Shown here piece by piece: positions 45,752 to 47,528 of a stretch of 64,000 nt of DNA. Location of the stretch: assembly GCF_016616885.1 (NCBI RefSeq), contig NZ_CP067102.1:4244501-4308500 (forward strand). Direction: 5' to 3'. How positions within the stretch are numbered: position 1 is the first letter of the stretch; every line of letters starts with the position of its first letter. Origin of the DNA: Bradyrhizobium diazoefficiens. Lineage in GTDB: Bacteria > Pseudomonadota > Alphaproteobacteria > Rhizobiales > Xanthobacteraceae. The position numbers and the translations under genes are program-made. The notes below the pieces were generated by a model. That model made no database searches, was not told where the DNA came from, and saw nothing but the letters and a program-made list of their open reading frames with translations.

Positions 45752-46009
45752 GTCATTGCGAGCGCAGCGAAGCAATCCAGAATCTTTCCGCGGAGACGGT
45801 CTGGATTGCTCACATGGGGATTTGGTGTGTCAAGGTGGTAGTTCAGCTTTTTGTTCGATTGCAGCCAGCTCTTCGTCCCGACCATGGGGCCCTTCGGATG
45901 GCGCGCGCAGATCGAGTCAAGGTCGGCCCGTAGGGCCGCCGCGAAGCGGCTTGACCTTGACTTGAGCGAGCACGCCATCAGGCTTTGGTGGTCGGGCGGA
46001 TAACTCCTT

Positions 46010-46250
46010 GTCGTCAGGCGATCTCAGGTTCGAGCCAGTTTTGACAATCTGGTTTTGCTTGCCAGATCAAACTCACATTCGGTCGTCGCGTGATAGCGAC
46101 AGCACCAACATTCCGCTTGCGGCGGGCAGGCTCGAGAGGACGAGGCCATTCTTCGTTGCGGCGTTTGAAGCCATGCAATCCATCGGTTCGTCCACCCGGA
46201 TCGGCCGAGGTTCGATCGGACCTCGGCAGATTGGTTTTGAGGTGGTGAAG
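46010..46250 (-). ncRNA. Candidate bridge RNA (seekRNA) of the IS110-type element
   Basis: On the transposase strand, just after the stop, TGGATTGC (46182-46175) equals the target left of and into the core, and CGCAACGAAG (46160-46151) is complementary at 9 of 10 bases to the target right of the core (CTTCGCTGCG). About 40 nt later ATTCC-side GGAAT (46114-46110) equals the element's right end, and ATGTGAG (46078-46072) is complementary to core plus left end (CTCACAT). A GTCGC/GCGAC hairpin (46085-46100) lies between the last two. Order (target loop, then donor loop; left guide before right guide) fits IS621-type bridge RNAs. RNA limits are estimates. Confidence 0.5.
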
Positions 46251-46255
46251 AGGGC

Positions 46256-47422
46256 TCAGGCGGCAGGCTTCATCACGGCCCCCTCGATCACGACGCCCTG
46301 GGTGACATACTTCCACAAGGCAACCAGCAGCTTGCGCGCCAACGCCACGATCGCGCGCTTGCGGCCGCGCTGGCTGTTGGCCTTGAACCATTGGGTCAGA
46401 GCCGATTGGGGCTGGTGGCGTATCCACAACCAGGCGAGCTGGATCATCGTGGTTCTCAGCCGCGGATTGCCGGCCTTCGACACGCCCTGCTCGCGCTCGA
46501 TACCGCCGCTGCGCCATGGCGTGGCCGCAAGCCCCGCATAGGAGGCGACCTGGCGGCGGTTGGCAAACTGGCGCCAGAAGGCTTCCGTCCAGAGAACGGC
46601 AGCGAAGTTCGGGCCCAGGCTCTTCAGGCCGAGCAGCATGGTGACCGGGTCCGATGCAGCCTTCTCGCCGGTTGGCTTGCTCGCCGTCAGTAGCGCCTCT
46701 TGCTCGCGCTCCACCGCCGCGATCTGCTCGAGCAGCAGTTCGAGCCGGGCGAGCTCGCGGCCGACCTGCGCCTTCAAATGCTGCGGCAACGGGCGCCCGT
46801 CCCCGGTGCGCAAGGCCTCGAGCCGTGCCTTGCGGTCGCGCCGCAGCGGCACATAGCCGGATATCCCTTGTGCAAACAGCAGCCCCTTGATCCGGTTGAC
46901 GTGCTCGATCCGCTCCGCGATCAATGTCCGCCGCTCGCGGCAAAGTCGGCGGCGATCCTCGTCCTCCGGTGAAGGAGCAACCACCATCGCGCAGACCCGC
47001 GGCTCGCCGCGCTTGTAGGCCAGAAGCGACCGCAGCAGCGTCTCGCCATCGAGCCTGTCCGTCTTGGCCCGCCGGCGCCGGCGCGGCGTCGCGATCGAGG
47101 CCGGATCGACCACGTGGCTTTCAATGCCCTCCTGCTGCAAAGCGCGGTGAAGCCAGAACCCATCCAGTCCAGCCTCCTGGATGGTGATGATCGGATAGTT
47201 CTCCCCCGTTCGGGCCAGGGCCTTCTGCTTCAGCTCTGCAAACAGCTTCAAGAGCGCCGCAATATCACCGGCCTCCACGCTGTGTCTGGACATCTTCTCG
47301 CCCTTGCCGGGCGACAGCGAGGTCACCAGCCATGTCGAGCGGCTCAGTTCCAATGACACAAAAATTGCGCCAAACTGCGTGCGGATAGCGGCCGGTCCGT
47401 CGGAAGGATGATCGAGCAACAT
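46256..47422 (-). CDS. IS110-family transposase (DEDD recombinase)
   Basis: The 388-residue protein starts at the ATG at 47422 (MLLDHPSDGPAAIRTQFGAI). The RuvC-like DEDD domain shows FVSLELSRSTWLVT (Glu25 where most relatives have Asp), TIQEAGLDGFWL and KTDRLDGETLLRSL. A coiled coil follows (about 200-260), then the Transposase_20 domain with YAGLAATPWRSGG and EQGVSKAGNPRLRTTMIQ, including the conserved Ser of the S-K-x-G-N-x-x-L-R motif. It looks intact. The enzyme would be guided by the RNA encoded downstream. The frame reaches 47659 but the extra codons cross the element's end. Confidence 0.92.
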   Translation of the reverse strand: MLLDHPSDGPAAIRTQFGAIFVSLELSRSTWLVTSLSPGKGEKMSRHSVEAGDIAALLKLFAELKQKALARTGENYPIITIQEAGLDGFWLHRALQQEGIESHVVDPASIATPRRRRRAKTDRLDGETLLRSLLAYKRGEPRVCAMVVAPSPEDEDRRRLCRERRTLIAERIEHVNRIKGLLFAQGISGYVPLRRDRKARLEALRTGDGRPLPQHLKAQVGRELARLELLLEQIAAVEREQEALLTASKPTGEKAASDPVTMLLGLKSLGPNFAAVLWTEAFWRQFANRRQVASYAGLAATPWRSGGIEREQGVSKAGNPRLRTTMIQLAWLWIRHQPQSALTQWFKANSQRGRKRAIVALARKLLVALWKYVTQGVVIEGAVMKPAA

Positions 47423-47528
47423 CGTCGTCTCCAGGTTGAATGGATTTAGCAACCTCAGTCTGGCCTCAGATCTGGTCGCTATCCACTCCCCATGGAATCT
47501 TCGCTGCGCTCGCAATGACAGCGGACGA

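Follow-up and report, generated by a model that had tools for sequence, protein, structure and literature searches.

Comparative evidence for a bridge RNA (seekRNA) of an IS1111-type IS110-family element in the REP-like repeats of Bradyrhizobium diazoefficiens

The non-coding end of a 1688-bp element of B. diazoefficiens, taken as a whole, almost certainly encodes the bridge RNA (seekRNA) of an IS1111-type element of the IS110 family, and the comparative support for this reading is strong. The observations that carry it are the positions of the guides, their complementarity, their co-variation with targets and element ends, a conserved fold, and an insertion base common to six copies of the element. 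The initial annotation of the region had proposed a candidate bridge RNA from the letters alone, and the proposal is borne out by guides that co-vary with their flanks and by the conservation of the fold. The kind is already published, as the bridge RNA/seekRNA of IS1111 elements, REP targeting included; the present case is an added member.

Results

The window, i.e. the whole stretch of DNA that was analysed (64,000 nucleotides), contains the element together with the following features.

45811 to 47498, minus strand: whole element, 1688 bp between two CT cores, delimited by comparison of six copies with differing outer flanks
45802 to 45808, plus strand: target half TGGATTG, identical in all six copies
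45809 to 45810, plus strand: CT core, non-coding side, from the six-copy comparison
47499 to 47500, plus strand: CT core, transposase side, from the six-copy comparison (CC in copy L006)
47501 to 47508, plus strand: target half TCGCTGCG, from the six-copy comparison (TCGTCG in L003 and L005, TCGCTGGCG in L001)
45813 to 45820, plus strand: subterminal inverted repeat CATGGGGA
47487 to 47494, plus strand: subterminal inverted repeat TCCCCATG, the same pair occurring in relatives L067 and L069
45828 to 45833, minus strand: TTGACA, candidate -35 of a putative circle-junction promoter
46256 to 47422, minus strand: IS110-family recombinase (transposase), 388 aa from an ATG inside the element (PF01548, PF02371, NF033542)

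The termini of the element, as defined by the six copies in its own genome, are CACATGGGG, starting at 45811, and CCATGGAAT, finishing at 47498; both are flanked by the CT core, and the plus-strand target reads TGGATTG-CT-TCGCTGCG. The non-coding end extends over 445 bp (45811-46255), the length initially annotated, and lies downstream of the gene, with 76 bp upstream of the ATG. All six copies entered a REP-like repeat at one and the same base, and since the outer flanks differ, the copies represent separate insertions. The transposase-side junction is CTTCG in five of the six and CCTCG in L006, and a variant of the repeat with CTTCGTCG hosts L003 and L005. Five copies share about 100% identity and one 99%, and the near-identity of the five argues for recent activity, as judged from their sequences. 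The transposase of the sixth copy, L006 (near 7651362-7653041 of the same genome), is frameshifted; L006 shares one REP with L175, a copy of another IS110 element, the end of which forms the flank of L006. Of 37 distinct element ends, 35 carry TTGAC at a distance of 24 or 25 nt, counted from the non-coding end, and no clear -10 for the candidate promoter was seen in this survey.

Four guide-like stretches had been noted on the minus strand of 46010-46250, and all were located.

46027 to 46229, minus strand: predicted bridge RNA (seekRNA), extent of the match to covariance model R1 (214.3 bits; the window RNA, L004, is a training member of R1, so that neither this score nor the scores of identical copies count as independent)
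46176 to 46182, minus strand: right-target guide TGGATTG, complementary to CAATCCA of the target
46151 to 46159, minus strand: left-target guide GCAACGAAG, with the core AG at its 3' end, 8 of 9 positions matching the target
46110 to 46114, minus strand: right-donor guide GGAAT, complementary to ATTCC of the transposase-side end
46072 to 46078, minus strand: left-donor guide ATGTGAG, identical to the non-coding end plus core

The matches claimed for them (8 nt, 9 of 10, 5 of 5 and 7 of 7) hold, the first consisting of seven nucleotides plus one core base, as 46182-46176 reads TGGATTG(C). The order of the guides had been described as left before right, as in IS621, which is correct if left denotes the non-coding end; in the orientation of the transposase it is reversed relative to IS110/IS621, with TGGATTG (top-strand match) 5' of CGAAG (bottom-strand match). 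This is the order of IS1111 elements, in which the top-strand match precedes the bottom-strand match, the reverse of IS110 elements (PMC11187229, in the sections that describe guide order).

Co-variation of the guides with flanks was then assessed among relatives. The protein search matched 210 of 265 Bradyrhizobium genomes, distant IS110 proteins included, and a search with the non-coding DNA gave matches in 66 of the 265, often short or weak ones. From 86 loci (six own and 80 fetched relatives), element ends were sought by motif; L070 was without a transposase match, 14 of the 85 oriented loci were without one or both ends, and 71 were left. Permutation of guides against targets used one representative from each of eight target classes, drawn from relatives with 67% identity or more; five of these classes rest on one insertion each, and guide letters were read from alignment columns fixed by the window copy. 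On own targets, the right-target guide (7 nt) reached 44 of 56, where permuted pairings averaged 17.1; for the left-target guide (5 nt, excluding the core) the values were 36 of 40 and 13.4. For each half separately, a single one of the 40,320 permutations, the true pairing, attained the observed score. The co-variation check proposed with the initial annotation thus came out in its favour. The alignment-defined right-guide window, misplaced in the distant group, was shifted by a base in L087 and L094, and these entered the test at 0/7 and 4/7; re-read with offsets, both give 6/7.

In the 70 loci whose own end plus core recurs in the non-coding region, the right-target guide matches at 7/7 in 32, 6/7 in 10 and 5/7 in 28, and the left-target guide, core included, at 7 in 17, 6 in 29, 5 in 18 and 4 in 6, while unrelated targets at the same offset windows average 4.0 (right) and 4.5 (left). 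In relatives near 50% identity, the right-target guide scores mostly 5/7, near the level of unrelated targets (mean 4.0), and the right-target side taken alone lends weak support in this group. On the donor side, the element's own 7-nt end plus core recurs in the non-coding region of 70 of 71 loci (L116 being the miss), and the left-donor guide tracks changes of the element end through ATGTGAG, ATATAAG, ATATGAG and ATACAAG. At the position given by the alignment, the ATCCT-ended group (L121, L130, L138, L142) showed no right-donor guide (1/5). At L084, where the right end runs into a second copy midway through its transposase gene, the right flank is unlike the guide.

Guides were also compared with flanks in loci outside the training set of the covariance model described below (R1), other genera among them. 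This reading was made after the fact, with ends of part of the loci marked by motifs picked by eye; L201 was left out, as were L096 and L097, whose right end was not found, and for L200 the motif search showed no ends. In other genera, right and left scores, of seven, were 7 and 7 for L160, 6 and 7 for L159, and 7 and 6 for L199, a match of R1 next to a transposase, in windows for which the best unrelated targets reach 5 or 6. For the right-target guide only, L163 scored 6, L164 7 and L070 7. The right-target guides of L098-L102 scored 5, 5, 5, 4 and 6 and their left-target guides 6, which is no higher than the best unrelated targets (6 and 6). It is L160, L159 and L199 that carry the weight of this reading. 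The elements L199 and L067-L069 are located outside REPs, L067 and L068 in mutually similar sequences; the target of L199, by eye, presumably falls inside another transposase gene.

In a tree of 31 recombinases, of which 27 fall into 11 right-target classes, 10 changes of class are required, the minimum for 11 labels; L067 (support 98/92), nested among REP-targeting elements, is the nearest kin of the window element. The tree bears on the alternative that the non-coding region is a DNA or RNA structure bound by the transposase, that the protein alone reads the target and that the guide matches are incidental. The recombinase does vary together with the guides, the classes lying on different branches, as this alternative would have it; yet the scaffold is conserved apart from the guide columns, which change in step with the target, and in a sister as close as L067 (87% identity) guides and target have both changed (guide TGGTCTG, target CAGACCA). 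We regard a protein-read target as very improbable, and favour an RNA that carries the guides.

The 12-bp target, CGAAGCAATCCA, i.e. the joined half-sites in transposase orientation, occurs at 203 places in the genome of the window, and the reversed pattern at none. It is present in all 60 sampled Bradyrhizobium genomes, with 16 to 407 occurrences per genome (control, 0 to 2), and is an arm of a REP-like palindromic repeat. On the bridge-RNA reading, the element would land in this repeat because its target guides spell part of it. That it sits in REPs merely as these recombine or spread with it, with no aiming, is less probable still, for, abundant as the repeats are and even with rearrangement between copies on record (L084), the same base was entered in six copies despite differing outer flanks, and relatives with other guides occupy other sequences. 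Two further IS110 elements of this genome, L173-L175 (three copies, 435-aa frame) and L176-L179 (four copies, 437-aa frame), are inserted elsewhere in the same REP-like repeat, following CGTCATTGCGAG and, in copies with a readable flank, preceding GCAGCGA or GGAGCGAAGC.

Conserved structure, another check proposed at the outset, was likewise found. The segment 46250-46010 folds at -81.7 kcal/mol (z -2.41), with 2 of 200 shuffles equally stable, and fifteen relatives yield a 47-pair consensus consisting of a 5' hairpin, a target stem-loop in which the two target guides flank a small hairpin, and a multi-loop that contains the donor guides. Pairing is present in 95.4% of the 703 consensus cells, both sides have changed in 12 pairs, and pairing falls to 29-44% once partners are slid. 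None of 500 shuffles reaches four of five measures and 12 of 500 reach the fifth; these shuffles take no account of relatedness, and tests of this sort are inflated by relatedness and by a structure derived from the consensus. Covariance model R1, from which a second RNA alignment (A3) was left out for a misaligned 3' stem, finds the RNA in 45 of 54 sources (E 1e-5 or better), including untrained loci and other genera, and its matches adjoin transposases beyond the training set. The nine sources without a match are other IS110 loci (L172, L173, L176, L180, L184) and the L121 group (L121, L130, L138, L142). Among 289 genomes of the class, R1 matches four, the genome of the window included, and Rfam gave no family at gathering score, with one unrelated sub-threshold match (E 0.7).

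The start codon of the recombinase was picked from an alignment of relatives. Both PF01548 (RuvC-like) and PF02371 (Tnp) score above cut-off, as does NF033542 ('IS110 family RNA-guided transposase'; 211.8 bits, cut-off 140). E25, E83, D122, D125 and S305 are invariant in all 31 clade members (alignment A2), as is S305-G306 of the Tnp domain. In place of a DEDD tetrad, all 31 therefore read E-E-D-D, with Glu (motif ELS) at the first site; Asp to Glu is a conservative change, and the domain models still match. IS621 has the tetrad D11, E60, D102, D105 together with S241, with metal held by D11 and E60, and mutation of any of the five abolishes recombination, according to the relevant sections of PMC11208160 and PMC11208158. 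The assignment of E25 to the D11 position is based on alignments with other IS110 proteins, the alignment to IS621 itself covering the C-terminal part only and the Pfam match beginning past the first site. The first site is Asp in 16 of 18 other IS110 rows, Lys in one and cut short in one; these are the usable rows from 15 of 29 loci tried plus three own-genome rows, so that four come from the own genome, two of those four being the same locus. By motif, Glu occurs in 119 of 120 database proteins listed, all close kin, and the clade was seen mainly in Bradyrhizobium and also in other alphaproteobacteria. Literature titles on such a variant were not found, which is no proof of absence. We think it reasonably probable that this clade of bridge-RNA recombinases works with Glu instead of Asp at the first catalytic position (E-E-D-D plus Ser) and that its guides have redirected it in nature on at least ten occasions. 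If active, the Glu variant would relax a rule for the active site of IS110 recombinases.

Discussion

We propose the following series of steps. The RNA would be transcribed in the sense of the transposase from the region behind its gene, and its promoter probably arises as the element ends are joined in a circular intermediate. One internal loop would then pair with both strands of the genomic target via TGGATTG and (A)CGAAG, and the multi-loop with the joined element ends via GGAAT and ATGTGAG, upon which the recombinase may exchange strands at the shared CT (AG) core.

The guides explain the occupancy of the REP-like repeat by the element, and the relatives form a natural series of re-aimed bridge RNAs, mostly from one genus, in which related recombinases and scaffolds are combined with differing guides and targets, and in which the donor guides change along with the element ends. 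Such a series is a ready test set for the rules that govern guide length and tolerated mismatches among IS1111 elements.

The closest known systems include the IS1111-group seekRNA elements ISEc11, ISPa11 and ISKpn4. In these, as described in the pertinent parts of PMC11187229, the non-coding region and the RNA lie downstream of the transposase, as here, where the longer non-coding region follows the gene (445 bp against 76 bp upstream), in line with the initial placement of the RNA after the gene as in IS1111. The same source describes for the group the guide order found here and subterminal inverted repeats. Such repeats span 7-17 bp in the IS1111 group, and those of the present element measure 8 bp. 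ISPa11 likewise targets a REP, whereas host and repeat are others here, the transposase is longer (388 aa against 330-350) and the first catalytic site is Glu (PMC11187229, same parts). Two features of a bridge RNA are present as well, namely a conserved fold with two guide-bearing loops, and guides that match and co-vary with target halves and element ends, save for the right-donor guide in the L121 group. With IS621 and the IS110 group, in the sections of PMC11208160 and PMC11208158 that treat them, the element shares target and donor guides in two loops, the CT core and the catalytic Ser, and a sequence match to the recombinase C-terminal domain of IS621. In contrast to IS621, where the RNA lies upstream, it lies downstream here, its guide order is opposite in transposase orientation, and its donor guides stand in a multi-loop, as a passage of PMC11208160 notes for many IS1111 elements. 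Finally, ISPpu9, ISPpu10 and ISRm19 resemble the present element in that every copy counted in PMC1525189 lay in REP sequences; their hosts are others, Bradyrhizobium being absent from the main text of that report.
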